Assembly (NCBI RefSeq): GCF_019059575.1
Contig: NW_024881626.1
Coordinates: 558,001 to 622,000 of the forward strand
From: Amphibalanus amphitrite
Taxonomy: Eukaryota > Arthropoda > Thecostraca > Balanomorpha > Balanidae
Length of the DNA stretch: 64,000 bases
Direction of reading: 5' to 3'
Shown piece by piece: positions 11,101 to 46,996 of the stretch (positions are counted from its first letter, which is position 1; every line of letters begins with the position of its first letter). Position numbers and translations under genes: made by a program. A model generated the notes under the pieces. The model saw only the letters and a list, made by a program, of their open reading frames with translations, was not told where the DNA came from and did not search any database.

Positions 11101-11918
11101 AAGTCGGGAACCTTGTCCTTGGCGTCACTTTTGACAGCACTATGTCATGGGACGCACACGTCTCTGAACTCTGCCGCCGGTGTACGGGACTGCTGATTGG
11201 TCTTTCACATGCACGCCACTGTCTCCCAGATGGCATCATTCGAACGCTCGTGACGGCACTCGTTGTATCGCGTATCCAGTACTGCCTTTCAGTTTATGGT
11301 AATGGGTCCCAAAAAAATTTCGATCGACTCCAAAAAATTCTTAACTTCGCCGCTAGAGTTATTTTCGGCCGCCGTAAATTTGACCATGTCTCCGACCTGC
11401 GAACAAAACTCGGGTGGTTGTCCCCGCGCGGTATGTCCGATTTCCACACCCTTGTCATCGCACACAAGGTCATACAGCGCCGTGAACCTGAGCAACTAGC
11501 AGCCCTGTTCGTCGCTAATAGCGCTATCCGCGAGAGACCATCCAGACAAGATCACTTCTTCCATCTTCCCCGTCCACGGCTGGAAACGGGCAAGCGGCGG
11601 TTTGGCTATCGAGCTGCAGCTCTGCTGAACAGCCTGCCACCTCACCTGTCGCAGCTGCCTCCCGCCCGCTTCGCCCGCGCTGTTAAAGCCGCAATCGTGG
11701 ACGATGAATCAGCACATCGTCGCTGACCAATAGGATAGGGGTGGGTAAAAGCGATGAGGCTGTCCTGAGAGTGTTTTGTCCTTGTTTTGACGTGAGTGAA
11801 TGTGCAACTGTTTTGAATGATTAGATTAGCAACCGCGGATACGGATTCTGAGCAGTAATCGCCACGCACTTTGTATGTGGATCGCTCTTAAATGTAAATA
11901 CAATACAATACAAATACA
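8103..11918 (+). mobile_element. Non-LTR retrotransposon (CR1/L2-like), near full length
   Basis: The boundaries come from interruption of the host MITE. There is a ~600-bp 5' region, one long ORF, a short 3' UTR and a tail of imperfect (ATACAA)n repeats at 11895-11918. A TTA-type short target duplication is possible. No separate ORF1 was recognised in the 5' region. Confidence 0.85.
8709..11726 (+). CDS. Endonuclease-reverse transcriptase of non-LTR retrotransposon
   Basis: The intact 1005-residue polyprotein would nick target DNA and copy the element RNA. An AP-like endonuclease spans about residues 60-290: LNIQSIKPK, SETWL near 96-100, GYGGVAI and a GDLN motif. The usual SDH position reads SPH, a possible defect. 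A reverse transcriptase follows, with NFRPISLVP, HGFRPRHSTE, the QGSALGPLLF block and the catalytic YADD at 722-725. The C-terminus has the CR1/L2-type conserved tail (GYRAAALLNSLPPHL). The start is the first in-frame Met; translation could start upstream. Absence of stops over 3 kb suggests a recent insertion. Clade assignment below CR1/L2 is uncertain. Confidence 0.92.
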   Translation: MAVRDRLSNDTTREVAETIRRSLPAYLIRCLNRSRPLSPAEAACGPRPASRTLQSSRPTDPPKLLIGALNIQSIKPKLQELTCELARRNYDVMVLSETWLRPSTPKRLLVIPGYSLSRVDRPDGSGYGGVAIITKNSLTSMTLKIPGSGSSESKLESQWALLKLDKGQQIIICSLYRPPRHSEAALLADFTDLEAQLQRVLIDYPRVPFVLCGDLNCDLLKGPNFRASQHLISFLSNYSLDQLVTNPTFTSGSLLDVCIVNKRELVCDTSVNYCHFSPHKIIDVIVNVPKVRQKPAVISSRSFKRLDHPALYHDLLDVDWDYVFSAETVSDKWHAFLSFFVPVFDAHAPIKRVSIRNPTAPPVSAATRNLMSQRRAALRHLGRNSSEYRDLNRSVRAAVRRDRRIEIRREIGERGPNKVWQCIRSVVAAKKDGPDVQPDLSADDLNSFFVSVGPRVADEIRAQNTPTDLDVRLTRVGACSFQLREITLGELERIIFSMRNSSACGSDNVCVRMLKFGFPAIGGVILHIINTCLIQSDIPDSWKHSIVHPLFKSGNPSDPANFRPISLVPVIMKVVERIVHQQLYAYLSHNHLLASSQHGFRPRHSTETALLSVTEHILAATDRGDLSMLCLLDLSKCFDVIDHDLLMQKLMLHGVEISWFAAYLHGHTQSVSLKDVSGRRVLSRPLSNAMGVFQGSALGPLLFTIFSNNLSLYAGDAKVFQYADDTQVLVSGPARDLEVLISRMEDSLASLNDWFCANALKVNASKTQLIAFGTRQNLRKLPDFRVPFRNAALQPCAQVGNLVLGVTFDSTMSWDAHVSELCRRCTGLLIGLSHARHCLPDGIIRTLVTALVVSRIQYCLSVYGNGSQKNFDRLQKILNFAARVIFGRRKFDHVSDLRTKLGWLSPRGMSDFHTLVIAHKVIQRREPEQLAALFVANSAIRERPSRQDHFFHLPRPRLETGKRRFGYRAAALLNSLPPHLSQLPPARFARAVKAAIVDDESAHRR

Positions 11919-13535: not shown

Positions 13536-13998
13536 AGAGCAGTCACACAAAGGTTTTGCAACCAAGGAGAGGCGCTATACCCGGAGGTGCTTCGGTATTC
13601 TCTTAGCAGACGTCACCCGAGCTGCCATATCCAGTAAGGTAGGTTAGGTTGTAGGTTGGTAGGTTAGGTTGTGGGTTGTAGGTTGGTAGGTTAGGTTGTA
13701 GGTTGTAGGTAAGGTTAGGTCAGGTTAGATTATGTTTTGTTATATATTTAACCGTGAAAAGACAATTGTTGCGCACGTGAGACGTAGATATGGCAGCTCG
13801 GGTGATGTCTGCTAAGAGTACCGGTGCTTCTTTCTAACAAAACCTAAACAAACCTAAACTAACCTGACCTAACCTAACCTACAACCTACAAACCAAAACC
13901 TACAACCTAAAAACCTACAAACCTACCCTACAACCTACAAACATACAGCACCTCTCCTCAGTTGGAAAACCTTCATGTGATGTCTGCTCTACTAATGC
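13536..13998. mobile_element. Fold-back element with TAGGTT-rich arms
   Basis: The outer inverted repeats are about 45 bp (AGTAGAGCAG...GGAGAGG and complement). An inner near-perfect pair of about 30 bp (CTTAGCAGACGTCACCCGAG and complement) sits at 13603-13634 and 13788-13820. Between outer and inner arms are imperfect GGTAGGTTAGGTTGT repeats on the left and their complement on the right. No ORF. Superfamily unknown. Confidence 0.8.
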
Positions 13999-22483: not shown

Positions 22484-25400
22484 CTAAGACACGGTTCTCA
22501 AAGGCATGTTCCTGCAGTGGACCACGACGAATGATTTAAAAGAGATAAAGGTATCCGACGTGAAATCCACCTGAGGATTCCTGGCGATAAAATCATTTGC
22601 CTGGGCCGCCAGCCTTGTAAAAGTTCCTGTCTTTACCGTCGAGACTCGAGCAAACGGCACATTAAACAACTGGACGTTCCGTGTTGGACGACTTGGTACA
22701 TGTAGTGCGAACGAGGCTAATAAAAAAGACGAGTCGATACGTCCAGAGTAAATGCTTTTCAGGAATAAAAGATCGAACTGAGTGCGCCGCGCCTCGAGTG
22801 ACGAAACATGGAAGAAGTGTAAAAGATGACAGTATTCCAGGCAAATTGATCTGTCCGTGCCACCGGCCCGAGCTGCTAACCACATTAGGAATTTGTGCTG
22901 GACTCGTTCTAACCGTTTTAAATGAACTTTGGCTGCGCCAGACCACACAACACTACCGTATTCAAGAATAGATCGGACGTTTGCGTAATATGTAGCTATC
23001 AGAGCCCTCTGATCAAGTTTTTGTCTGGGCAAGCCGGTCTGGAAAGATCTGAATAGCTGTCCGAGGGCTCTGTTTGCTTTTGCTATTGAACTGGTAATAT
23101 GAGCCGAAAACGTTAGTTTAGAGTCCAGCACAATTCCAAGATCGCGAACTTCTGCGACACGCTGAAGGGGGAAACTGTTGACAAGGTAGGTGTGTAAGAT
23201 GGGTGCTCTTTTGAGAGTGACCGTGAACGAAAGGCACTTCTGAGCGTTGAGAGAAAGACACCAATCGGTGGACCATTTGCAAATGTTGATGAGGTCGGTT
23301 TGAAGGAGGCCGCAATCAGCAGGAGTTGAAATTTGCCGGTAGATTTTGACGTCGTCCGCATACATGACGCATTTGGACGACGACACAACCGTCGGCAAAT
23401 CATTGATGAAGAGAGAAAAAAGCAAAGGGGCCAGAAGGGCCCCTTCCGGAACTCCGGATTTTACTTTAGCCCACTCAGAAGTTCTTCCATTCACGATCAC
23501 TCTCTGCTCTCTCTCCGACAGGTACGAGACGAACCAATCCAAAATTTTGCCGCTAATACAGTAAGACTCGGATAGTTTGAACAGGAGTAATTTATGATTA
23601 ACACTTTGGAAAGCCGCAGAGAAATCCGTGTATATTGTGTCCGTCTGGCACCCGTCGGAGATCGAGCCCCAGGCAGTGTGAAGGTAGGTGGTAAGGTTGG
23701 TGATACAGGATCGGCCAGGCAGGAAACCGTGTTGTGCTGGGGATAGCACTGGGGCAGCGTGTCGCAGAAGCTCGTCAACAACAATTTTTTCAATAACCTT
23801 GCCAAAAAGTGGAAGAAGAGACACAGATCGATAATTTCGGGGATCTTTTTTGTCACCCTTTTTGTGTATCGGCACAATGTTTGCCTGTTTCCATTTGGAT
23901 GGAAAAATGCCTTGTCGCAGTGACATGTCGCAGAGTTTGGCCAGTGGCACGGACAGCTCTGAGGCACACTCATGAACAATACGAGCACTGATCCCGTCGG
24001 GCCCGCATGCCTTGGTTGCTGGTATAGATTTCAGAATCGCACACACTCTATCCGCGGATACAGCGATACGGTTCAGGGCCGGCAGGTCGTGTCGCGTTAC
24101 AGCGGGGTAGGTCGACACGTTGGGATCAGTGAACTTAGATGCGAATACCCTGTTCAGTAGGGAGGCTCTGCCAATATCGTCTGAGATGAGCGTTTCACCG
24201 TCTCTTAAAATTGGGTGTAAAGATCCCGTTTTCCTAAAACATTTCAGAAACGTCCAATATCTTTTCGGGTTCGACTTAAAGCTATCGACTAGATCACGCA
24301 GATACATGGCATAACGCCGGCTACAAATGTTTTTAAACGCCGAGCGCTTGTCCGAGTAACCGCGTCGTGATTCATCACTGGGACTCCGGCGAAGTCTCCG
24401 GAAAGCAGTCTCCTTCGCTTTGAGAGCCTGCCGCGCAGCGGCGCCAAACCACGGCGGAAACAAACGACGCAGAGTCACACGTGGTACATGATCACATATA
24501 GCAGCCCTTAATAGTGAGTAGAACAAATCAACTGCGCTGTTCAGTTCCAGATCATCTAGCATGGACCAGGGCGTAAGTGCCAGAACTCTACGGAGTCCTT
24601 CAAAGTCTGCCCTCTTATAATTAAAAACTGTGGTCCGTGTGACTAAGAGTGGTGAAAATGCCGGTATCGGTATACTAGTGAAGACCTCCAAGTGATCGGA
24701 ATCAAGCCAGCCGTCCCTAGCCACAGCACTGCAGGTAAGACCACGGGTAAACACTAGGTCGAGGGTGTTCAGTCCTCGTGTTGGCTGTAAGACCCACTGT
24801 TTCAGTCCAAGGAGGTCACAATTGTCCAAAAACACGCACGCGCGGTCAGTTCGTCGCTGCAACACCGGTGTCGCCGAGGAGTCGTCCGCTGGCCGCCATT
24901 GGACCTCCGGCAGGTTAAAGTCGCCGACCAGGACCAGGCTGTCACACCCCGATAAGCCGCTGATCGCCTCGGTCAGCCGCACCAGCGACACGTCGTCATC
25001 AGGCGGCCTGTAGCACACCGCCACCGTGACGGAGACGGCCGCCAGCCGAAGGAGCAGCATCTCTGAGCCGGGCGGGTCGGGCAGGCGGAACGGCTGCAGC
25101 TGAGAGCGGACCGCGCAGGCCACGCCGCCGCCCAGCGAGCCGCGGTCGCGGCGGAACCAGGTGTGATTCGGTAGCCCGGCCGACAGTTCAGAATCCGAGA
25201 CGGTGTCATTGAGCCACGTCTCCGTTATGGCGATGAGATCCAGGCGGCTCAACTCAGGGCTCGCAGCTCTGAGCTCTCCCAGCTTGGCTTTGATGCTGCG
25301 AGCGTTTAGCAGAGAGGCAGTCAGAGTCCGTTGCTGCGTGCCGCCGCGCGGTGCTCGGGATGGCCGGCCGGTGTCTGTGGCGGGCTGAGAGGGCCCGGGA

Positions 25401-25744
25401 TTGATCTCGACATCACCACATCGGATCAACAATCGGCAACCTTGATAGGTGGCATCGGTCTTGGAGTCGTACGGGACTCGGGTGCGGCAGTAGTGACCAC
25501 ACCTTACCGCCCGGGTGACCGTGATCCGTCTGCTGATGATGGGTGGCGCCGCCTGGCGATCCGGGGCAGCTGTGCTCAGCAGTGCCAGCAGCAGGAGAAC
25601 GGCGACCGTGGTAAGCTGCACCCACGTGCGTCTCCGATAGATGGCGCCACCGTCGAAGCGGAGCGGCGTGACCCCGTGGCATCCGCGGTCAGCATTGTAA
25701 ACAATCGAGCGGCGGGCAGACGAACGTGGCGCGCCTGACCCCAT
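22484..25744 (-). CDS. 2A-containing endonuclease-reverse transcriptase polyprotein
   Basis: Intact 1086-residue ORF. The N-terminus has a hydrophobic segment (about residues 41-60, TTVAVLLLLALLSTAA) and a 2A-like motif GDVEINPGP at 110-118. Known 2A sequences cause ribosomes to skip the Gly-Pro bond, which would release a ~117-residue leader from the enzyme. The endonuclease follows (LLNARSIKAK, ITETWL, VGDFNLPEVQW, SDHLEVF). The reverse transcriptase has NYRSVSLLPLFGKVIEK, GVPEGALLAPLLF (Glu instead of the usual Gln) and catalytic YADD. The CR1/L2-type C-terminus follows. The start is the first in-frame Met. 2A motifs are established in APE-type non-LTR elements of some marine invertebrates; activity here is inference. 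Confidence 0.92.
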   Translation of the reverse strand: MGSGAPRSSARRSIVYNADRGCHGVTPLRFDGGAIYRRRTWVQLTTVAVLLLLALLSTAAPDRQAAPPIISRRITVTRAVRCGHYCRTRVPYDSKTDATYQGCRLLIRCGDVEINPGPSQPATDTGRPSRAPRGGTQQRTLTASLLNARSIKAKLGELRAASPELSRLDLIAITETWLNDTVSDSELSAGLPNHTWFRRDRGSLGGGVACAVRSQLQPFRLPDPPGSEMLLLRLAAVSVTVAVCYRPPDDDVSLVRLTEAISGLSGCDSLVLVGDFNLPEVQWRPADDSSATPVLQRRTDRACVFLDNCDLLGLKQWVLQPTRGLNTLDLVFTRGLTCSAVARDGWLDSDHLEVFTSIPIPAFSPLLVTRTTVFNYKRADFEGLRRVLALTPWSMLDDLELNSAVDLFYSLLRAAICDHVPRVTLRRLFPPWFGAAARQALKAKETAFRRLRRSPSDESRRGYSDKRSAFKNICSRRYAMYLRDLVDSFKSNPKRYWTFLKCFRKTGSLHPILRDGETLISDDIGRASLLNRVFASKFTDPNVSTYPAVTRHDLPALNRIAVSADRVCAILKSIPATKACGPDGISARIVHECASELSVPLAKLCDMSLRQGIFPSKWKQANIVPIHKKGDKKDPRNYRSVSLLPLFGKVIEKIVVDELLRHAAPVLSPAQHGFLPGRSCITNLTTYLHTAWGSISDGCQTDTIYTDFSAAFQSVNHKLLLFKLSESYCISGKILDWFVSYLSEREQRVIVNGRTSEWAKVKSGVPEGALLAPLLFSLFINDLPTVVSSSKCVMYADDVKIYRQISTPADCGLLQTDLINICKWSTDWCLSLNAQKCLSFTVTLKRAPILHTYLVNSFPLQRVAEVRDLGIVLDSKLTFSAHITSSIAKANRALGQLFRSFQTGLPRQKLDQRALIATYYANVRSILEYGSVVWSGAAKVHLKRLERVQHKFLMWLAARAGGTDRSICLEYCHLLHFFHVSSLEARRTQFDLLFLKSIYSGRIDSSFLLASFALHVPSRPTRNVQLFNVPFARVSTVKTGTFTRLAAQANDFIARNPQVDFTSDTFISFKSFVVVHCRNMPLRTVS
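25391..25414 (-). other. 2A-like ribosome-skipping motif (DVEINPGP)
   Basis: Codons 111-118 of the preceding ORF match D-V/I-E-x-N-P-G-P exactly. The skip would fall between Gly117 and Pro118. The upstream residues LLIRCG are hydrophobic followed by Cys-Gly, typical of invertebrate 2A sequences. Confidence 0.9.
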
Positions 25745-31131: not shown

Positions 31132-34100
31132 AACGAGTCGAGTTTGATGAGCGGAGCTCGACTTCTGGTGACAATCAAGCTCAGTCTTGTATGTACGTCC
31201 ACAGTGCATTCAGTCAACGGAAAGAGTGACGATGCGTTATTTATTGACGGCAAAATCGACGGGGTACCAGTGCACTTGCTCATCGACAGTGGAGCGGCTG
31301 TATCCGTGATCAGTTCCAAGACTTGTTCGAAGATTACCTCAGCCACCGGAAAAAGTGTCAGTCCTACAACGTGGCAAGTAAAGTCTGCTTCTGGCGACAA
31401 ACTTACCGTGTATGGTCAGCTAGAAGTGCAGCTGGCAGCTGCCCAAGAGAACTGGCCTCTCACAGCACTTGTGGTAGACGTCAGCGAAGACGGAATCCTG
31501 GGAATGGATTTCTTGGGTGAGGCCATCATTGACTGCAAACGGAAGTCCCTGAGCTTGAATAAAAAAACGGTGCCACTAGTCGGAAAAAACGAAACCGAAT
31601 CCTACAAGCCCTGCTACAAGATTTACCTGGATGAAACCGTAGAGATGAAAGAACACAGCGAGCTTTTGGTGACGGCGAAGATTCATTGTGATGAGAGAAT
31701 ATCAGGACCAATAGTCGTAGAACAGAGCAAGTTCAAAAGTGATTTCATCGTAGAAGATGCCATAGTAGACACAGACGACGATAGAACGGTGACACTTAAA
31801 CTACTGAACACACAAGATCAACCCCTGAAAGTAAAGAAAGGTACTCAAGTGGCGCAGTGTGAAGAGCTGACCGACCCTGTGGTGGAAGTAAAGCTCATAA
31901 AAACGGCGGGAAAGGAGAAGAAAAATCTTCCAAACCATCTCACAGATCTGTTCGAAAAAAGCACCGAGTTTCTAGTTGACAGTGAAGCAGCAAAAGTCAG
32001 GAGAATTCTGCTTCAGTTTCAGCAAGTTTTCTCTGCCGGCCCAAGTGATCTAGGAAGAACGGAACTTGTCCAGCACAAAATCGACACAAGTGACGCTCGC
32101 CCCGTGCGCATCGCTCCGCGGAGGATTCCGTTGGCAAAACGAGCTGACGCACAACAATGTGTGGAAGAGATGAAAAAACAGCAAATTATCGTGCCATCGA
32201 ACAGCCCATGGTCGGCGCCTATCGTCTTAGTGAGGAAAAAAGACGGCACCACGCGCTTCTGCGTGGATTACAGGGGGCTAAGCGAAGTTACCAAGAAAGA
32301 TTCGTTCCCACTGCCCAGAATCGACGATGTGTTGGACTCTCTGGCGGGCTCTTCCTGGTTCAGCATCCTGGATTTAAAGAGCGGCTATTGGCAGGTCGGG
32401 ATGGACTCCAGAGATCAAGAGAAAACGGCCTTTTCAGCCCTCAACCAGCTGTGGGAATTTTGCGTGATGCCCTTTGGACTCTGCAACAGTCCTGCTACAT
32501 TCTCAAGGCTGATGGAGCAGGTGCTACGGAATGTCCCACGACTGCCTGCCTCGTTTACCTGGATGATCTAATTGTGCACGGCAGCACGTTCGATGAAATG
32601 GTTGTCCATCTTCAACAGGTGTTCCAGAAGCTGGAGAGCGCCGGACTGAAACTTAACCCCAAAAAGTGCAGCTTGTTTCAGCGGCAGGTCAGCTATCTCG
32701 GCCATACGATCAGCGCAAAGGGTGTCTCCACAGATCCGGCGAAAATCCAGGTGGTCATGCAATGGCCCCAGCCTAAGAACAAAAAAGAAGTGAAAAGCTT
32801 TTTAGGACTCTGTTCTTACTACAGGAGGTTTGTGCCAGAATTTGCGGATGTCGCGAGGCCTCTGCACGAAGTGGCTGAGGAGCGCAGCTCCTTCGTCTGG
32901 ACAGAGAGATGTCAAAAGGCCTTCGAAGAGCTGAAGAGCAGGCTTACTAGCGCGCCGATCCTGGCACTCCCTGGAGATGGGGAATTCATACTGGACACCG
33001 ATGCCAGCGATGTCGGAGTGGGGGCAGTCCTGTCCCAGTTGACAGATGGACAGGAGAGGGTGGTGGCGTACTACAGTCAGGCGCTGAACAAGGCGGAGAA
33101 AAACTACTGCGTCACCAGACGAGAACTTCTTGCAATGATAAAGGCCATAAGACATTTTCATCATTACCTGTATGGAAGGAGGTTTGTCATCAGGGTAGAT
33201 CCTTCAGCGCTTCAGTGGCTAATGAAGTTTAAGAACCCTGAAGGTCAAGTAGCCAGATGGATCCAGGCGGTTCAAGAATATGACTTTCAGATCATCCATC
33301 GAGCTGGACAGAAACATAGCAACGCTGATGCTATGTCGAGGAGGCCATGTCCTGAAAACTGTAAGCATTGCAACCAGGCTGAGGCGAGCCAATCGACAGA
33401 ATTGAAACGGAATGAGACAAAACTGCAAATCAATAGAACGGCACTGCTCCCGGAGGTGAAGTCTACTCGCTCTCTGGAAGAGTTAAGAGTGCATCAGCAA
33501 CAGGATCCAGCACTGAAAGCAATAATTTCATTGATTCAAGAGAGACAAGAGCGGCCGGACTGGAAGGAATTAGGACCGCAAAGTCAAGAATTGAAAAGCT
33601 ATTGGAGGCTATGGAACTCATTGCAGCTGTAAGATGGAGTGCTCTTCTACCGGTGGGAGTCTGCATCTGGCACCCGTCCTGTACTGCTCCGAATTCTACC
33701 TGAAACGATGAGGCACGACGCGTGGGAGCAGCTTCACGCTGATCCTGTGGGAGGCCATCTGGGGGTCCAAAAGACAATGAGCAAACTCAGAGCTCGGTTC
33801 TTTTGGGTTGGACAGCGCCTTGACGTCAAGAAATGGTGTGAATCTTGTCAAATTTGTCAGTCAAAGAAGGGTCCGTCAATCAGGAGAAGAGCGCCAATGC
33901 AGCAGTATAATGTGGGCTTTCCCGGGGAACGCATAGCCATTGATGTGCTAGGACCCCTGCCAGAATCCAATGCAGGCAACCGATACCTGTTGGTTTTGAT
34001 GGATTATTTCACTAAATGGCCCGAGGCCTATGCATTGCCAAACCAAGAGGCTACTACGGTGGCGACAGCGATCCTACAGGGATTTGTGTCACGTTTCGGG

Positions 34101-34772
34101 ATCCCCCATGAATTACATTCCGATCAAGGGCGTAATTTCGAATCAGCGGTGTTCAAGGGGATGTGTGATGCGCTGGGCATCACGAAAACAAGGACAACGC
34201 CACTCCATCCACAATCTGATGGGATGGTCGAACGGTATAATCGAACCATTGGCAATCAACTGGCTATGTACGCTCAAGATAACCCTGCCGACTGGGACCA
34301 GCATGTACCACTATTGCTACTGGCGTACCGGTCTGCCATGCACGAGACTACGGGGGAAACACCTGCCAAGCTTATGCTGGGCAGAGAACTGACACTTCCC
34401 ATTGACATCTTCTATGGTCTGCCAGAAAACAAAACAATGCAGACCATTCCTGAGTACGTGCAAAATTTGGATGAAACGATCCGGAAAGTCCATGAATTCG
34501 CAAGAAAGAACATTGTGAATATGAGTAACAGGGCGAAGGGACGGTATGACCTGCGAGCATCAAGCCGGCAGTTTGACCCCGGTGATCATGTCTGGTTGTA
34601 CAGCCCCCAGCGCAAAAAAGGAGTCAGTCCAAAGCTGACGTGTCCATGGAAGGGACCCTTCCTGATCGTCACCCGCATAAACGACGTCGTTTACCGAGTG
34701 AAAGAAAATGGCGGCAAGAAGCCGTTGATTGTACATAGTGACCGATTGAAGAAGTATGTCGGACCTGGTTAG
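31132..34772 (+). pseudogene. Gypsy pol (protease, RT, RNase H, integrase), frame lesions
   Basis: The enzymes would process, copy and integrate the element. An aspartic protease DSGA motif lies at 31285-31296. Reverse transcriptase runs from about 32130, with FCVDYRGLSEVT and FGLCNSPATFSRLMEQ. Its catalytic YLDD lies near 32559-32570 but in a different frame, so a 1-base loss falls near 32540. RNase H follows (DTDASDVGVGAVLSQ). An in-frame stop at 33630-33632 precedes the integrase. The integrase has an HHCC zinc region, catalytic D, D and E (residues 102, 162 and 198 counted from 33639) and a C-terminal HxSDRLKKY-type end. The segment 31115-31225 may carry two more compensating shifts. The lesions may be mutations or assembly indels. 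Confidence 0.88.
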
Positions 34773-39147: not shown

Positions 39148-39306
39148 TGCAGAGATGCTACCTGAGCGGTACTTAGGTAAATGGGGCACGTGCTAATTAC
39201 TGAACAGTGCTAATTAGTTTAGGTGCCATCCTATTGTTACTAACGGGCATTTAAGATGATTTGGTCATCGTTCTAATACATGTTTCACGAACGAGGAGTT
39301 TCTTCA
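39148..39306 (+). repeat. 5' LTR, 159 bp
   Basis: TGCAGAG...TTTCTTCA. Contains TTTAAGATGATTTGGTCA (39250-39267), the predicted primer segment. Confidence 0.92.
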
Positions 39307-39324
39307 TGACCAAATCATCTTAAA
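39307..39324 (+). other. Self-complementary primer-binding site
   Basis: TGACCAAATCATCTTAAA abuts the LTR and pairs perfectly with 39250-39267. It lacks the TGG start of a tRNA-primed site. The geometry (the 3' end of the pairing segment meeting the first base after U5) is that of Tf1/sushi-type self-priming. Confidence 0.8.
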
Positions 39325-39372
39325 AAATGTAAACTTTTAGTAAAAGCCGGCTATTGATTCTTATGAGACAAA

Positions 39373-40449
39373 ATGGTGATCGTGACCTGCTCAGTGCCGT
39401 CATGCGAATTTCGTAGTGACGATGTATCGGAAGCCCTAGCCATCGCCATCCTCACCAATCATGGCCTAGCTCACCAATCCAGATCGGAGACTGCTCGCGC
39501 GCCCGTCAGACAAGGACCAAAGCTCGAGCGCCCGAGAGTGGATGTTGGCGTCACCACCGAAGAATGGAACGTGTTTGTTCGGCGGTGGGATGTCTTCCGG
39601 ACAGGGTCTGGGATAGATGACGCATCAGCGCCATCGCAACTCTTCCAATGTGCCAGTACCGAGCTTGGCGACAGCATGCTGAAAGCAAATGCTTCAGTCG
39701 TGAATGGGTCGCTGTCCGATGTGCTCGAGTGCATGCGGTGTCTAGCAGTGATCCCTGTCGCTCTTGGAGTCTTGCGCTCAGAACTGCTGCAACTGCGACA
39801 GGAGCGCGACGAACCTTTCAGATCGTTCGCTGCGAAGGTACGCGGTAAGGCTGAAACGTGTAACTTCAAGGCTGACTGCAAATGCGAGCGTCAGGTGGAC
39901 TATACCGATCACGTGATCCGGGACGTCCTTCTGAACGGAATATCGGACTGCGACATTCGGCGCGAGGTGATAGGCGATCGCACAATTCACTCAATGGCCG
40001 TAAATGACGTCATCGCGCTGGTGGAAACCAAAGAAATGGCCCGCAACGCTCTTCCCCCGTCGATGTCAGCGGTATCGACCCTCCGACGGCAGCGCAGTGC
40101 CCCAGGGCCTCAGGTGTCGACACCTGTCCCATCTGCTGCAGATCGGACGAGACAGGTCAACTGTCCAGACTGCAACAAACGCTATTGCGTGTTCACTGAA
40201 GGCCCTCGTGGGTGGAACGCAAAACCTCACCCTCGTTGTCTGGATTGTTTCCGTGCAAAACGTCGAGATAAACGCTCACCGACGGCCCAGCCTCAGACTG
40301 AGCTTGCCGCACAGACGGTAGAGACCGACACGGTCTCTCAGATGACCACTGAAGAAGCCTGCTCAGTGGGCCGGGAAGCACAAAAAACAGGACGGAAGAA
40401 ACCTTCACACCGGAAGAACACTGTCAATAGCTGCAGAGATGCTACCTGA
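39373..40449 (+). CDS. Gag-like protein of a gag-only LTR element
   Basis: 358 residues. Begins with a Cys/His motif (CSVPSCEFRS ... HGLAH, residues 6-34, C2H2-like). It continues with a capsid-like region (WNVFVRRWDVFRTGSG, LFQCASTELGDSML, VDYTDHVIRDVLLNGISD) and ends in a basic region with a Cys pattern (CPDCNKRYC ... CLDC, about residues 263-297). This layout resembles gag proteins of metazoan Gypsy-type elements with an N-terminal zinc finger. The stop lies 18 bases inside the 3' LTR. No purine-rich tract before that LTR was obvious. The ORF is intact, unlike the larger Gypsy copy, so it may be translated. Confidence 0.82.
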   Translation: MVIVTCSVPSCEFRSDDVSEALAIAILTNHGLAHQSRSETARAPVRQGPKLERPRVDVGVTTEEWNVFVRRWDVFRTGSGIDDASAPSQLFQCASTELGDSMLKANASVVNGSLSDVLECMRCLAVIPVALGVLRSELLQLRQERDEPFRSFAAKVRGKAETCNFKADCKCERQVDYTDHVIRDVLLNGISDCDIRREVIGDRTIHSMAVNDVIALVETKEMARNALPPSMSAVSTLRRQRSAPGPQVSTPVPSAADRTRQVNCPDCNKRYCVFTEGPRGWNAKPHPRCLDCFRAKRRDKRSPTAQPQTELAAQTVETDTVSQMTTEEACSVGREAQKTGRKKPSHRKNTVNSCRDAT

Positions 40450-40590
40450 GCGGTACTTAGGTAAATGGGGCACGTGCTAATTACTGAACAGTGCTAATTA
40501 GTTTAGGTGCCATCCTATTGTTACTAACGGGCATTTAAGATGATTTGGTCATCGTTCTAATACATGTTTCACGAACGAGGAGTTTCTTCA
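40432..40590 (+). repeat. 3' LTR, 159 bp
   Basis: Same length and sequence as the 5' LTR as far as read. Confidence 0.92.
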
Positions 40591-41221: not shown

Positions 41222-44200
41222 ATGAGCGACGAAACACTTATCTCACCAGAGGATGGACGCGCAACAATGGGTGGAAGCACACCTCGCTGTTGCAAGTGCG
41301 TATCTAACCCGTGTAGAACCTGCCGCTGCGTGAAACTGGGAAGACGGTGTGCCACCTGTCGATTCGGAGACAACTGTCCGAATTCAGTACCAAAGCTCAC
41401 ACAATTATGCGACATTGCTACAGAAATCGCTACTTTGAAGCAAAACAGTCGGGTTCTACCGCACATCCCAAAAGGAGCGCGTATCGCGGTAGCAGACGAG
41501 CTTGCTCACCTTATCAACGACGCTGTCGAACAGGGCACTGAGGAAGCGTGGCGCAGGCTCACGTGCTTTGGATACTCTACGCTCAGTATCAACAGAGAAG
41601 CGCGAACAGCAGAAAAGACCTCTTTGGCCACACAAGTGCGCCTAAACCTATCACAGAACAGTGACACCAACAAGGTCCGTCCTTCCAAACCATCCAAACG
41701 CTCACATGCACATCGCCCGGTGGGCGAGATGACAGCGATGTCACGACGCGTGGCCTCGAAACTGACGGACGGCGATACCCGGGGAGCGCTACGAGCTCTG
41801 ACCTCAGATGACTCCTTCGCATCTCCAACAGAAGAAGTCATCAAAAGGATGCAAGAAAAGCACCCAGAACCGCCCACTGACCTGCGAAACGTTCCGCTAC
41901 CTGACGACATCCACGTGCCGTTAGTGGCTTCCGAGGCCGACGTTTTGAAGGCGATCAACTCCTTTCCGCCGAGCTCCAGTGCAGGTTTGGATGGGATTCG
42001 CCCCGCCCACCTGCGCTCCCTCCTCACTAAACACACCGCCGAGGCTGGAGCTCGCCTACTCACAGCTCTGACAGCGCTCACGAACTTGGCGCTCAGCGGC
42101 CGTCTTCCGGAATGCGCAACACCAGCTTTCTTTGGCGCGTCGCTGATTGCTCTTCGAAAGAAGGACGGCGGCCTGCGTCCCATCGCTGTCGGCAGTGAGT
42201 ATCGCCGAATCGCAGGCAAGGTCGCCGCCACGGCCGTCTCGGCGGCCATCGGAGCTCAGCTGCGACCAGTACAGCTTGGTGTGGCCACGAGGAACGGCTG
42301 CGAGGCGGCAGTATACGCCACCAGAGCATACATCGACGAATGCGAAGCGTCCGAAAACAGCAGAGTTATCGTGAAGCTGGACATCTCCAATGCCTTCAAC
42401 ACCGTGCGCAGAGATGCGATGCTGGAAGCTGTGAAAAGTCGTGCGCCAGAGATATACCCGTTTGTATGGCAGGGCTACAACAACGCCGCGCCACTTTTCA
42501 TCGGCGACAGTAAAATCCTTTCTCAGACAGGAGTCCAGCAAGGCGATCCGTTGAGCTCCCTGCTGTTCTCTCTGACAGTGGATTCTGCCACCAGGGCTCC
42601 AGACACAGAAATAAACACCTGGTACCTGGATGATGGAACGCTGGCTGGCCCACCATCTGACGTCATCTCCAGTATCAAACAAGTGAAGGCAGAAATGAGC
42701 GAAGTGGGGCTCGCCATAAACGCAGGCAAGTGTGAAGTCACCTTCCTGGGAGGCTTCACCGACGATACCAAGCTCAGCGCCCTGCACATGCTGCAAAGTG
42801 TTCTTCCCGACATCCGGGAAGTCCCCGTGGATGAGTTAGAGCTGCTTGGTGCGCCTGTACATGACGCTCAAACAAGACGTGCGCTTCTACAAGGCCAGCT
42901 CCTGGTAGAGAAGCTTATCAAGCGCCTTCAGGCTCTGGACGAGGCACATCAGGCGTTCTTCCTACTGAAGAACTACGTGTCCCTTCCTCGCCTGTTGTAC
43001 CTTCTTCGAAGCTCTCCAGCCTACCGCCACCCCGCCCTGCTCAACAGGATTGACGAAGCAGTTCGCCGTGGCATGGAAGTGATCACAAACGTCCAACTGC
43101 GTGACATTTCATGGCGACAAGCGACATTGCCAATCAGCCTCGGTGGGCTAGGCGTAAGGAGAGTAACAGACGTTGCCCTTCCTGCTCACCTCGCATCTCA
43201 AGTAGCATCCGCTGACACGATCGCATCCATTAACGGCTCCGCCGCTAATCGCGTCAGTGAGCTAACGAGGTGCTTGATCTCAGAGTGGGAGCGTCGCACA
43301 GGCTTGCCTCCACCGGAAGCGCACAGGCGGCGCTACCAAAGAGAATGGGATCGAGCTGAGACAGCAAGAATCAGTGAACGGCTGCTGGAAGACAGCAAAA
43401 CCGATGTTGACCGAGCCCGACTCCGAGCTGCCGCACAACCACACTCTGGTGCCTGGCTGAACGCCTTCCCAGCCGCCAGCGTGGGCACGCTGCTCGACCC
43501 TGACACCCTGCGGACGGCCGTCGCCCTGCGGGTGGGAGCAGATATATGTGCTCCTCACCGCTGCCGCTGTGGAGCCGACTTTGACGAGCGAGGCCTGCAC
43601 TGCCTGTGCTGCCAGATGAGTGCTGGCCGGTTCCCACGCCATGCGGAACTCAACAGCGTCATCAAGCGTGGACTATCAACCGCTGGAATGACGTCTGTTC
43701 TCGAGCCGGCCGGCTTAGACCGCGGAGACGGACGTCGCCCTGACGGCATGACGACCTTCCCCTATGCAGAAGGGAAGTGCCTCGTCTGGGACGCTACCTG
43801 CGTCGACACGTTCAGCGTTTCGTCAGTCAAGGCATCCGCGGCCCGTGCGAGCTCAGCTGCAACCGTCGCCGAGAGGCGTAAGCGCCATCGCTATGCCGAC
43901 ATAAGTCGACGCTATCTGTTCCGCCCTGTCGCCGTAGAGACATCCGGAGCGCTCGGCCCGGACAGTTACTCCTTCTTGAAGGAGCTCGGCCGCCGTATTG
44001 TGAAGACCACAGGAGACCGACGGGACTTTGAACGCCTCATGCAGCGCGTGTCTGTGGCGGTGGTGCGCGGCAACGCCACAGCCGTTCGACTTGCGAGCGT
44101 CAATGTAAGGCCGAGTCACAGAGCCAACATTGAGCCAAAATCACTTCCATGGCCACCCACAAACTCAACTGGCACCGAAGCAAAGCTCCCACCGGAGCTA

Positions 44201-46996
44201 CCAACCACCACGTCTCCTACGACCAGACCAGCAGAACAGGAGATACTGGATCCATTGAACATGGGACTTCCCAACAATGGTATAAGCATGTGCCAGCACG
44301 TGGGCAAGAGCGTCAGTCTGGCTGACATTAAGCGGCAGCTGAAGTCGAACCGGCGGATCGGCGCCTGCGACAAGAAGGTGCCGACCCCGTGCACGGCACC
44401 CGCGGATGGGGAGGAGCGGTCGGTGCCGTCGGGCGCGCAGCTGCCGCACGGCGTCTGGCTGTGCATGCAGTGCGGCCACCAGGGTTGCGCGAGGCACGCC
44501 ACGCAGCACTTTAACACGCCGCGCTCCGACTCGCACACGCTGGCCGTCAATGCCGCCGCCGACTGGGGCGTCTGGTGTTTCACATGTAACGAGAAAGTGT
44601 CACTGAAGAGTAATAAGAAACTTCACGAAGCTGTGCAGTTTGTCAAGAAAAGGCAGGGAACTCTACGTCCCGGGGCCACGCCATCCAAGGAGGACACTCC
44701 GCCTCCCAAGTCTTCCAAGGGCGCCTCCGCTAAGGAGAAACAGGCTCAAGCGGACTGTGATAACGAGTCACTTCCGAAGGTCAAGGGTCTGATCAACCTG
44801 GGCAACTCGTGTTACCTGAACTCGGTGCTGCAGTGTCTGAGCCAATGCCACTACCTGACGCACTACCTAGACATCAGCAGCCGCCCAGGACGAAAGGTCA
44901 CAGTCAGCGCTGACGGCGAGACCATGGAGCTGGTGCTGCCGGAGGGCGGGCCCATCACCGCCTCGCTGTGCGACTTTCTCAAGAAGATGCACATCACGGG
45001 CACCGGCTCCACCGTCTCCCCCAGTCATCTGCTCAGAAAGATCGCCCTGAAGGTGCCCCAGTTTGTGGGCTGCGACCAACAGGACGCACACGAGCTGCTG
45101 CGAGCGCTCATGGAGCAGGCGCGGCTTGAGGATCTCCGGCGGCACCAGAAGCAGATCCTGCTCGGTCTGGGGCTGCCGGCCAAGGCCGACCCCAAGGAAG
45201 TACCCGACGACATGAAGGCGCGTGCCAAGGCGCTGGGCCACCAGGTATCGCATACGACCATCGACTCCATCTTCAGCGGCCAGCTGGTCAGCCTGGTGGT
45301 GTGTCAGGCCTGCATGGCCTGCACACACCGCATGGAGCCCTTCCTCGACCTCTCGCTGCCCGCCGCCGAAGATATCATCTTCAGCCTGCTGTCGGAGCTC
45401 GACCCGCCGCCGGCCTCGGTCAGTGGGGATTCGACGGAAGACGAGCTAAACGAACCGCCGGCCTCAGTCAGTCCGGACCCGCCGGCTGACGAGCCGCCCG
45501 CCTCGGTCAGCCCCGACCCGCCGGCTGACGAGCCGCCTGCCTCGGTCAGCCCCGACCCGCCGGCCGACCTGGCCGCGGAGGAGCTCTCGGAGCGGCTCAG
45601 CGCGCTGATTGTGGACAGCGCCGGCGCCGCGGCCGCTGCGGACTCGTGTGGGGACGAGCCGGGCCCGCTGACGGTGAACGGCCGGCCGTCGTCACCGGTG
45701 GAGGCGGACGCGGCGCCGGCCGGGCTGGTGCCACTGGTCGGGGAGAGTGCTGACAAAGCCCCGAACGGTGCGCCGGAGACGGCGGGAGCGGACCAGGTGG
45801 GGGAGAAGCAGAGCTCTGTACCGGCGGAGAACTGCGGAGAGGCTGTGGAGGCGCATGAGAACAGTCTGGGCGCTCCGAACGGTCACTGCGGAAGGGCAGC
45901 CGAGGAGGCCCCGCGGGAGGGCCAGTCGCCGTCACCCGGTGAGGTGCCGGGCGGTGTGCCGACGGAGGCAGTGGCGAACGGCCAGAGCTCAACGACAGGG
46001 GTGGCGGACGGCGGCGAACTCCAGTCTGCGCCGAACGGCGGGACCTGCGCGCCAACCGAGTCTGCCCCGGCCGAAGGGACGGGGACCCCCTCACCGGCGG
46101 CTGAGCCCTCGGACGGCCCGCCGCCGCCGCTGAGCCGCTGTGAGTGGCTCAGTCGAGCGCTGACCACCCTGGCGCCGCGCTACCAGGCGGCCGCTGGCGA
46201 GTGCAGCCTGCTCACCTGCCTTAACCAGTACACGGCGCCCGAGCTGCTCACCGGCAACAACAAGCTCGGTTGCGACAACTGCACCGAGCTGCGCAACAAA
46301 CGGCTCACGGCGGCTGAAAAAGCAGCTGAGAAGAAACTCGGCACAGTATACAGCAACGCCAGCAAGCAGCTGCTCATCTACAGTCCGCCGCCGGTGCTGA
46401 CCATCCACCTGAAGCGGTTCGAGGTGTGCAGCTTCAGCCTGCGGAAGATGAACCGGCACGTGCAGTTCGGCGAGCGGCTCGATCTGGCCCCCTTCTGTTC
46501 CTCCATCAGCCAGGACCTGCCTCAGATGCGGGCCGGCCAGCGGCGGGTGCTCTACTCGCTGTTTGGTGTCGTTGAGCACAGCGGTCGACTGACCAGCGGC
46601 CACTACACAGCCTACGTGCGCGTGCGCCGCCGTCACGACCAGCTCACCGTCAACCCTGCGCGACTCACCACACTCGTCACCGACGCGTTCGCCGTGGCGT
46701 GTGAGCGGGCGAGGCAGCGCGCCGAGCAGACCCGACCGGAGACCACGGACGGACCGTCCCCGGTCAGGCCCGCAGAGGAGGGCCGGGAAGACGGGGAGGG
46801 CGAGGACCCCGCCGCCGCGCCACAGGAGTCACAGACGGATCAAAAACAGCCCGCCCCGGAGCCCGAGACGGAGCCGGAGCCGCAGCCGGAGGCCGGGCGG
46901 TGGTTTTACGTGAGTGACACGCACGTCACAGAGGTGACTCTGGACAAGGTGCTCAAGGCGCAAGCTTACATGCTGTTCTATGAGCGAATTGTGTAA
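41222..46996 (+). CDS. RLE-type reverse transcriptase fused in frame to a USP16/45-like deubiquitinase
   Basis: One 1924-residue ORF without an intron. Residues 23-52 form a cysteine cluster. The reverse transcriptase spans about 210-560: SSAGLDGIRPAHL, KLDISNAFNTVRRDAM, QQGDPLSSLLFSL and YLDD at 468-471. A zinc-knuckle-like CRC...H..CC (781-797) and RPD (839-841) with EGK and D857 follow, matching the R2-type restriction-like endonuclease. From residue 1023 the protein is USP16/USP45-like: ZnF-UBP (to ~1145), Cys box GLINLGNSCYLNSVLQCL with Cys1197, a Pro/Ala/Gly-rich insert with repeated PPASVSPDPPADE (about 1400-1635), His box SGHYTAYV with His1794, and Asp1899. Codons after ~44290 are much richer in G/C at third positions. 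It could be a chimeric gene, a retrotransposon that captured a host gene, or a 3'-truncated RT element lying in frame upstream of a separate USP gene. Confidence 0.85.
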   Translation: MSDETLISPEDGRATMGGSTPRCCKCVSNPCRTCRCVKLGRRCATCRFGDNCPNSVPKLTQLCDIATEIATLKQNSRVLPHIPKGARIAVADELAHLINDAVEQGTEEAWRRLTCFGYSTLSINREARTAEKTSLATQVRLNLSQNSDTNKVRPSKPSKRSHAHRPVGEMTAMSRRVASKLTDGDTRGALRALTSDDSFASPTEEVIKRMQEKHPEPPTDLRNVPLPDDIHVPLVASEADVLKAINSFPPSSSAGLDGIRPAHLRSLLTKHTAEAGARLLTALTALTNLALSGRLPECATPAFFGASLIALRKKDGGLRPIAVGSEYRRIAGKVAATAVSAAIGAQLRPVQLGVATRNGCEAAVYATRAYIDECEASENSRVIVKLDISNAFNTVRRDAMLEAVKSRAPEIYPFVWQGYNNAAPLFIGDSKILSQTGVQQGDPLSSLLFSLTVDSATRAPDTEINTWYLDDGTLAGPPSDVISSIKQVKAEMSEVGLAINAGKCEVTFLGGFTDDTKLSALHMLQSVLPDIREVPVDELELLGAPVHDAQTRRALLQGQLLVEKLIKRLQALDEAHQAFFLLKNYVSLPRLLYLLRSSPAYRHPALLNRIDEAVRRGMEVITNVQLRDISWRQATLPISLGGLGVRRVTDVALPAHLASQVASADTIASINGSAANRVSELTRCLISEWERRTGLPPPEAHRRRYQREWDRAETARISERLLEDSKTDVDRARLRAAAQPHSGAWLNAFPAASVGTLLDPDTLRTAVALRVGADICAPHRCRCGADFDERGLHCLCCQMSAGRFPRHAELNSVIKRGLSTAGMTSVLEPAGLDRGDGRRPDGMTTFPYAEGKCLVWDATCVDTFSVSSVKASAARASSAATVAERRKRHRYADISRRYLFRPVAVETSGALGPDSYSFLKELGRRIVKTTGDRRDFERLMQRVSVAVVRGNATAVRLASVNVRPSHRANIEPKSLPWPPTNSTGTEAKLPPELPTTTSPTTRPAEQEILDPLNMGLPNNGISMCQHVGKSVSLADIKRQLKSNRRIGACDKKVPTPCTAPADGEERSVPSGAQLPHGVWLCMQCGHQGCARHATQHFNTPRSDSHTLAVNAAADWGVWCFTCNEKVSLKSNKKLHEAVQFVKKRQGTLRPGATPSKEDTPPPKSSKGASAKEKQAQADCDNESLPKVKGLINLGNSCYLNSVLQCLSQCHYLTHYLDISSRPGRKVTVSADGETMELVLPEGGPITASLCDFLKKMHITGTGSTVSPSHLLRKIALKVPQFVGCDQQDAHELLRALMEQARLEDLRRHQKQILLGLGLPAKADPKEVPDDMKARAKALGHQVSHTTIDSIFSGQLVSLVVCQACMACTHRMEPFLDLSLPAAEDIIFSLLSELDPPPASVSGDSTEDELNEPPASVSPDPPADEPPASVSPDPPADEPPASVSPDPPADLAAEELSERLSALIVDSAGAAAAADSCGDEPGPLTVNGRPSSPVEADAAPAGLVPLVGESADKAPNGAPETAGADQVGEKQSSVPAENCGEAVEAHENSLGAPNGHCGRAAEEAPREGQSPSPGEVPGGVPTEAVANGQSSTTGVADGGELQSAPNGGTCAPTESAPAEGTGTPSPAAEPSDGPPPPLSRCEWLSRALTTLAPRYQAAAGECSLLTCLNQYTAPELLTGNNKLGCDNCTELRNKRLTAAEKAAEKKLGTVYSNASKQLLIYSPPPVLTIHLKRFEVCSFSLRKMNRHVQFGERLDLAPFCSSISQDLPQMRAGQRRVLYSLFGVVEHSGRLTSGHYTAYVRVRRRHDQLTVNPARLTTLVTDAFAVACERARQRAEQTRPETTDGPSPVRPAEEGREDGEGEDPAAAPQESQTDQKQPAPEPETEPEPQPEAGRWFYVSDTHVTEVTLDKVLKAQAYMLFYERIV
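44288..46996 (+). CDS. USP16/USP45-like ubiquitin hydrolase portion (possible own start at 44288)
   Basis: This is the host-like half of the preceding ORF, listed separately because it could be its own gene. An in-frame ATG at 44288 begins MCQHVGKSV, which corresponds to the usual start of the ZnF-UBP domain in USP16/45. The ZnF-UBP domain would bind the free ubiquitin C-terminus and the USP domain would cleave ubiquitin conjugates (USP16 acts on histone H2A). Catalytic Cys, His and Asp are present. The whole catalytic domain lies in one exon, which suggests either a retrocopy or a lineage that lost introns. No clear polyadenylation signal was seen downstream. Confidence 0.8.
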   Translation: MCQHVGKSVSLADIKRQLKSNRRIGACDKKVPTPCTAPADGEERSVPSGAQLPHGVWLCMQCGHQGCARHATQHFNTPRSDSHTLAVNAAADWGVWCFTCNEKVSLKSNKKLHEAVQFVKKRQGTLRPGATPSKEDTPPPKSSKGASAKEKQAQADCDNESLPKVKGLINLGNSCYLNSVLQCLSQCHYLTHYLDISSRPGRKVTVSADGETMELVLPEGGPITASLCDFLKKMHITGTGSTVSPSHLLRKIALKVPQFVGCDQQDAHELLRALMEQARLEDLRRHQKQILLGLGLPAKADPKEVPDDMKARAKALGHQVSHTTIDSIFSGQLVSLVVCQACMACTHRMEPFLDLSLPAAEDIIFSLLSELDPPPASVSGDSTEDELNEPPASVSPDPPADEPPASVSPDPPADEPPASVSPDPPADLAAEELSERLSALIVDSAGAAAAADSCGDEPGPLTVNGRPSSPVEADAAPAGLVPLVGESADKAPNGAPETAGADQVGEKQSSVPAENCGEAVEAHENSLGAPNGHCGRAAEEAPREGQSPSPGEVPGGVPTEAVANGQSSTTGVADGGELQSAPNGGTCAPTESAPAEGTGTPSPAAEPSDGPPPPLSRCEWLSRALTTLAPRYQAAAGECSLLTCLNQYTAPELLTGNNKLGCDNCTELRNKRLTAAEKAAEKKLGTVYSNASKQLLIYSPPPVLTIHLKRFEVCSFSLRKMNRHVQFGERLDLAPFCSSISQDLPQMRAGQRRVLYSLFGVVEHSGRLTSGHYTAYVRVRRRHDQLTVNPARLTTLVTDAFAVACERARQRAEQTRPETTDGPSPVRPAEEGREDGEGEDPAAAPQESQTDQKQPAPEPETEPEPQPEAGRWFYVSDTHVTEVTLDKVLKAQAYMLFYERIV

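Follow-up and report, generated by a model that had tools for sequence, protein, structure and literature searches.

The stretch of Amphibalanus amphitrite DNA analyzed here (64,000 nucleotides, positions 558,001 to 622,000 of contig NW_024881626.1, hereafter the window) raises the question of how a single open reading frame (ORF), at 41222-46996 on the plus strand, comes to join the reverse transcriptase (RT) and restriction-like endonuclease (RLE) of a retroelement to a complete deubiquitinase of the USP16/45 kind. From sequence comparisons, we consider it very probable that the encoded protein (P0001) is that of an R2-group retrotransposon without long terminal repeats (non-LTR), that its C-terminal tail has been replaced by a processed copy of a host USP45-like mRNA, and that the lineage to which it belongs has acquired ubiquitin-specific proteases (USPs) many times at the same place and has exchanged them between families.

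The frame runs through 1,924 codons without a stop; 200 shuffles of its mononucleotides yielded at most 344 open codons in the three forward frames. All of the domains of the protein (RT, zinc knuckle, RLE, ZnF-UBP and USP) lie within the frame (Table 1). Pfam finds RVT_1 (E 2.7e-19), zf-UBP (1.2e-10) and UCH (9.7e-49). The RT motif YLDD is at residue 468 and the endonuclease motif RPD at 839-841, and the USP triad is formed by Cys1197 in GNSC, His1794 in SGHY and Asp1899 in SDTH. Third-position GC, taken in steps of 75 codons, lies between 0.47 and 0.68 as far as codon 1050 and between 0.76 and 0.92 beyond it, with the exception of codons 1126-1200 (0.64). In the Protein Data Bank (PDB), USP16 scores highest against the USP half, with 313 bits, and the next USP reaches 93. 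The initial annotation, made from the letters of the DNA alone, had described the stop-free frame, the positions of these motifs, a ZnF-UBP with a USP of the USP16/45 kind and a rise in third-position GC near the joint, and each of these descriptions is borne out. At the Cys-rich block near the N-terminus the Pfam scan finds no family; by eye the block is CXC-like, a putative label.

The RT-RLE half is, by its sequence and predicted fold, that of an R2-group RLE element. An AlphaFold model of residues 1-973, built with 44 relatives, has a mean predicted local distance difference test score (pLDDT) of 90.1, and its best structure matches in the PDB are the R2 target-primed RT proteins 9nl3 (E 6.6e-23) and 8gh6 (E 6.1e-22), with LINE-1 behind them. 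Two relatives, P0059 from Chionoecetes opilio and P0149 from Nymphon striatum, are named 'Retrotransposable element SLACS protein'. The available text of two earlier papers names R2, R4, NeSL, HERO and CRE as clades of R2-group RLE non-LTR elements (PMC4640811, PMC3636483). With these elements the window protein shares a single ORF, an N-terminal zinc-binding motif, an RT, a zinc knuckle, a C-terminal RLE and the R2-like predicted fold; it differs from them in carrying a USP after the endonuclease and in the distance of its RT, to which the best R2 chain reaches only 38.6 bits at the level of sequence. It also differs from the R2 clade proper, which inserts in 28S ribosomal DNA, whereas Rfam gave no match at the gathering score anywhere in the window (no ribosomal RNA, ribozyme or RNA-gene target) and, at E values up to 1, no ribozyme or RNA-gene target between 39000 and 49000. 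When viral contigs were scanned with a profile of the fused family, 138 pattern stretches matched and none of them encodes a relative.

As far as alignment can tell, the USP half derives from a USP45-like mRNA of the host itself, as a processed copy. The nearest USP proteins are both from A. amphitrite. One of them, P0109 ('USP45-like isoform X2'), forms an entry by itself. Its N-terminus is its own, and inside the protein it has a segment of 107 residues (394-500) that the window protein does not have and that is also present in a close relative, P0111. We take P0109 to be the authentic host gene on the strength of its sequence, and the entry name implies isoforms, so it is presumably spliced. 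Relative to P0109, the USP half in the window is intronless and is without residues 394-500 and without 29 further residues, both in frame; a skipped exon likely accounts for the missing 107. The element part extends to 'EILDPLNMGLPNNG' and host homology begins at 'ISMCQHVG', which is residue 31 of P0109 in the alignment, and the joint lies closer to 44282 than to 44130. The other near protein, P0110, is annotated as 'Sphingosine kinase 1', and its gene model continues into a kinase that has no significant match within the window. P0110 has the identical joint 'MGLPNNGISMCQHVG' and the same gap of 29 residues, but it is a distinct sequence, 95.7% identical to P0001 over 854 aligned residues and differing from it at private positions. 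Two distinct A. amphitrite sequences thus carry the joint, which makes a misassembly there, raised in the initial annotation, unlikely; the separate USP16/45 gene for which it had suggested a search is found in P0109.

The two closest RTs to that of the window protein, P0002 and P0003, both have non-USP tails, which suggests that its USP16/45 is a newcomer and the replacement recent. A further copy of the element part probably exists, because a RefSeq model of A. amphitrite (P0087) contains near-identical fragments of the RT: one piece differs from the window RT at 1 of 44 residues, and a second does not differ over its first 80 residues, after which it diverges. The other exons of P0087 are without a significant match to the window. 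Downstream of the USP, no convincing remnant of an element tail was recovered when the C-terminal 200 residues of 13 tailed relatives served as tblastn queries; the two matches there had E values of 0.054 (P0002, 47443-47658) and 0.71 (P0005, 57361-57393).

Fusions with USPs recur throughout the lineage and with different USPs, which the initial annotation did not foresee. In the first homologue search, PF00443 was present in the same protein as the RT in 12 of 107 RT homologues; the second found 180 homologues, and at least 18 of the 120 matches listed carry PF00443, six of them new. A further fused protein, P0113, has an RT truncated at the start of the record, which was seen by BLAST (Pfam shows the USP alone). 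Beyond P0001 there are thus at least 19 RT-RLE proteins with a USP, and in the Pfam scan the USP is C-terminal in 19/19. Across the 20 proteins, 34-215 residues (median 95-97) separate the end of the RGN block, which is conserved, from the USP or ZnF. Among the 19, P0029 ('USP38') and P0035 ('USP2') are A. amphitrite proteins that bear the names of deubiquitinases. USPs and tails are spread throughout one well-supported RT clade. Many USP-less relatives end near the endonuclease block and are hence unscorable; the label 'tail' is limited to 13 proteins from one BLAST set, and USP-less new homologues were scored 'open'.

By PDB scores and BLAST, at least six kinds of USP are present in this lineage, namely USP2, USP8, USP16/45, USP30, USP35/38 and one that is putatively USP37-like by its motifs. 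The best PDB chain is USP2 for P0019 (363 bits; next USP15, 278), USP8 for P0020 (305 bits; next USP15, 258), USP35 for P0010 (166 bits; next USP36, 79) and USP30 for P0123 (172 bits; next 64). P0113 has no close PDB chain (60 bits); together with P0041 and P0043 we take it to be USP37-like from a sequence motif and a stretch resembling a ubiquitin-interacting motif, a putative label that no search returned. P0015 is a fragment of 66 residues whose score to USP8 (48 bits) is barely above that to USP15 (47). The remaining USPs were typed by BLAST to typed ones; for P0124 the type was taken from P0123, which it resembles (83% over 70 residues). The USP16/45 kind itself was probably captured a second time from the same host gene: P0138, whose RT belongs to another sublineage (47% RT identity with the window protein), carries a USP16/45 with 84% identity to that of the window over 70 residues, a different joint and no ZnF match, in a record that stops inside the USP.

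The kind of USP does not follow the RT. Our main RT-RLE tree (IQ-TREE) holds 35 chosen rows, made up of 20 fused proteins, 13 tailed ones, P0058 and P0009. On this tree the C-terminal label (with tail and open counted as states) changes 18 times, where the minimum is 8 and the mean of shuffled labels is 20.4; 12 of 200 shuffles are as low as observed, so the label tracks the RT tree weakly. USP2 accounts for 4 changes, USP37-like for 3, USP35/38 for 6 and USP16/45 for 2, and none of these four kinds is monophyletic in any of 200 bootstrap trees. Five kinds have at least two members, and the USP30 pair alone forms one RT clade, which it does in all of the bootstrap trees. Quick trees gave similar counts, with 3 changes for USP2, 4 for USP35/38 and 3 for USP37-like on 76 rows (14 fused), and 4, 6 and 3, plus 2 for USP16/45, on 93 rows. 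Some RT neighbours have unrelated USPs, such as P0019 (USP2) and P0128 (USP35/38), or P0020 (USP8) and P0113 (USP37-like).

Local identities disagree in the same way. P0041 is 70% identical to P0043 in the RT and 43% in the USP, and relative to P0113 the values are 59% and 71%. P0010 and P0029 share 70% of the RT and 36% of the USP. For P0012, the RT and USP identities are 75% and 46% with P0125, and 42% and 64% (the latter over 138 residues) with P0013. Short tails are also discordant (P0002/P0026, RT 49% and tail 82% over 83 residues; P0016/P0018, RT 55% and tail 86%). Given this discordance, both of USP kind with the RT tree and of RT with C-terminal identity, we read the segment after the endonuclease as an exchangeable cassette that appears to take up new content from host genes and to pass from one element family to another.

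In all 12 complete USPs, the Cys/His/Asp-Asn triad is intact in the alignment (by eye), with the catalytic Cys of P0007 sitting in ENTCY and not in GNTC. The triad persists even where RT identity is as low as 43% (P0010/P0012), an argument for catalysis being under selection in the lineage. In the window protein the triad and the ZnF-UBP are both present.

Several observations weigh against capture by a mobile, exchanging lineage. The whole fused unit of the window is known from one locus. No 3' end or poly(A) tract of the element was recognized there, and direct repeats of at least 14 bases, judged by eye, gave no convincing target-site duplication. The 19 fused relatives are known from protein records alone, and the USPs of 8 of them are incomplete in these records. 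Some pairs are concordant: P0019 and P0039 (RT 82%, USP 74%), and P0123 and P0124 (RT 88%, USP 83% over 70 residues), where the P0123 module includes about 60 linker residues (its PDB query was cut separately and is unaffected). An AlphaFold model of the USP half, made with 9 sequences, was poor (mean pLDDT 42.5) and was left unused. Finally, in 444 conserved ZnF/USP columns, P0001 and P0110 each have 5 private changes, with 1 common to both and one of those of P0110 at an exon edge of the gene model, and P0109 has none, so constraint appears weaker on the fused copies than on the host gene. In sequence, this is what one would expect of a mobile element with copies that degenerate once inserted, and equally of a dead chimera.

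Such a chimera could have formed once in A. amphitrite, if a retrocopy of USP45 ended up in frame with a copy of the RT, and never have moved as a unit. We regard this as possible, if clearly less than even in its chances; it concerns the window copy only and is compatible with fusions across the family, and its odds overlap with those of capture by the lineage. It fits the private changes that P0001 and P0110 each show at USP positions conserved elsewhere, the USP-less closest RT relatives and the P0110 gene model, which drops and shifts USP pieces as a damaged copy might. But the joint is located where the lineage carries its USPs, the whole frame is open with all length differences from the host in frame, and the P0087 fragments point to another copy of the element part. 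The initial annotation had offered three origins without ranking them, and of these the capture of a host deubiquitinase by a retroelement is supported, while the landing of an RT copy upstream of an authentic USP gene is unlikely because P0109 is separate, has its own N-terminus and has the 107 residues missing from P0001. The third, a domesticated host gene with an RT-derived N-terminus, would agree with an intact frame and with a joint that is also found in a second A. amphitrite sequence, but we reject it as quite improbable: the separate USP45-like gene is the more conserved one, the RT and endonuclease motifs are intact, and the pattern repeats with unrelated USPs across the lineage.

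An ancient acquisition of one USP, followed by divergence and loss, would place USPs and tails throughout one RT clade and leave the label slightly clustered, as it is on the tree. It is nevertheless very unlikely and we reject it, since the tested USPs are closer to different cellular subfamilies than to each other, and of the multi-member kinds only the USP30 pair behaves as a single acquisition would predict. An artefact of assembly or gene prediction, which relatives without DNA would allow, is the most improbable of all, and is rejected given the USP at the same point in 20 proteins, the single open frame in the DNA of the window and the repetition of the joint in P0110.

Capture of a host USP by the retrotransposon lineage can be set beside systems already described. 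In the available text of PMC4640811, the nematode NeSL elements and Utopia-1_TSP have Ulp1-like proteases at the N-terminus. They resemble the window element as RLE elements with a cysteine protease directed at ubiquitin or SUMO in the ORF, but their protease is of another family and N-terminal, whereas the USP is C-terminal. A NeSL-type Ulp1-like protease was not found in P0001, where Pfam matches UCH, RVT_1 and zf-UBP only. Exchange of protease types goes unmentioned for these nematode elements in the same available text (PMC4640811), and the words 'ubiquitin' and 'protease' do not occur in that of PMC3636483. For the cockroach R2-like BLAG elements, recombinational exchange of one end of the ORF, the 5' part, was deduced for BLAG 2 and BLAG 6 (PMC7650587, available text); in contrast to the lineage described here, the BLAG elements as presented there swap zinc-finger regions among themselves, with no captured host enzyme. 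On the host side, the window protein is like the USP16/USP45 deubiquitinases in having a ZnF-UBP and a split USP domain with Cys, His and Asp, and unlike them in being without the host N-terminus and the 107-residue internal segment and in being joined to an RT-RLE. We recognized no USP in a retroelement in the open-licence literature, judged mainly from titles and the beginnings of abstracts; Repbase was outside this scope and may hold a prior description.

Capture may have taken place at the level of RNA or cDNA. The element RT would start on a host USP mRNA and switch template to the element RNA within the flexible linker, giving a single cDNA with the 5' part of the element and the 3' part of the USP. 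Read-through transcription or DNA recombination could have had the same outcome, and swaps of the C-terminal segment between elements could proceed by the same switching or by recombination. Once tethered in cis, the USP could deubiquitinate the RT-RLE protein, its ribonucleoprotein partners or the chromatin of the target site, which would shield the complex from proteasomal or silencing factors. Different USPs have different substrates in cells. Since one kind can stand in for another here, selection more likely favoured generic deubiquitination close to the RT than action on any one host substrate. We tentatively propose, with a confidence that falls just short of even, that the C-terminus is a socket refilled with host deubiquitinases by the element's own RT, that the tethered USP may serve as a counter-defence against ubiquitin-dependent restriction, and that the turnover of USPs may be the trace of an arms race.

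To our knowledge, the presence of Ulp1 or OTU proteases in some non-LTR elements has no explanation so far. The uptake of at least six kinds of USP at the same place points to the removal of ubiquitin itself as the selected trait, and suggests that deubiquitination helps such elements to survive or move. The lineage also provides a natural test set, with one RT-RLE scaffold, many deubiquitinase tails and sister elements without any. More generally, it suggests a route by which retroelements may build new multidomain enzymes from host mRNAs, with a donor gene that is still recognizable in A. amphitrite.

We noted other features among the relatives. The tails of P0002, P0003, P0016, P0018 and P0026 have a common short C-terminal motif, RP(N/M)xLxxYxxLLAE(M/L), even among RTs that are 46-63% identical. 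P0028 (residues 13-80) and P0032 (residues 3-71) begin with a zinc finger of the nuclear-receptor type (PF00105 zf-C4, 56 and 34 bits), followed by a PHD finger (by Pfam in P0032, by eye in P0028), and in these two a DNA-binding domain seems to have been captured at the N-terminal end as well. OTU domains occur in non-LTR elements, and P0166 has an N-terminal OTU cysteine protease at residues 21-115 (PF02338, 39 bits) rather than a C-terminal USP. Of 201 proteins, 11 (P0013, P0015, P0018, P0021, P0030, P0069, P0074, P0075, P0078, P0123 and P0127) have a motif D[VI]ExNPGP that starts no later than residue 140; we presume it to be 2A-like, and it suggests a separate leader peptide.

Table 1. Positions in the window of the fused ORF and of the features within it, with the basis of each assignment.
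Feature	Position	Strand	Basis
RT-RLE retroelement protein fused to USP16/45 deubiquitinase, 1,924 aa	41222..46996	+	ORF, Pfam, PDB match
N-terminal Cys-rich block CCKCVSNPCRTCRCVKLGRRCATCRFGDNCPN	41288..41383	+	sequence; similar block in relatives P0005 and P0006
Reverse transcriptase domain RVT_1	42155..42772	+	Pfam; YLDD at 42623-42634
Zinc knuckle CxC-x9-HxxxC	43562..43612	+	alignment of 45 sequences: C781, H793 and C797 invariant, C783 at least 90%
Restriction-like endonuclease core RPDG...WD	43736..43792	+	45 sequences: R839-P840-D841 at least 90%, D857 invariant
Variable linker/tail, downstream of conserved VVRGNA block	44078..44281	+	corresponding region of P0002/P0003 leads into short non-USP tail
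Joint of element tail and host-derived USP16/45	44279..44290	+	alignment with P0109 and P0110; P0109 homology from 44282
ZnF-UBP, residues 1076-1128	44447..44605	+	Pfam
USP catalytic domain, residues 1189-1924, interrupted by long low-complexity insert	44786..46993	+	Pfam, motifs
USP triad codons Cys1197, His1794, Asp1899	44810-44812, 46601-46603, 46916-46918	+	
Site where P0109 residues 394-500 (107 residues) are missing, in frame	45373..45374	+	alignment

Other mobile elements are present in the window. Direct repeats of 159 bp, 100% identical, at 39148-39306 and 40432-40590 flank an ORF of 358 residues (39373-40449) that has no Pfam match and is Gag-like by eye; by its sequence, 39148-40590 resembles a small LTR element of recent origin that encodes no more than Gag. 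In an LTR-type pol at 31144-34772 (+), Pfam finds protease, RT, RNase H and integrase, spread over three ORFs that overlap or adjoin, and weakly also a dUTPase. Two non-LTR ORFs have an exo-endo-phos endonuclease and an RT by Pfam, at 8709-11726 (+; 1,005 residues) and 22484-25744 (-; 1,086 residues). At 13639-13947, degenerate arrays of the TAGGTTG and AACCTAC types lie on either side of about 115 bases.

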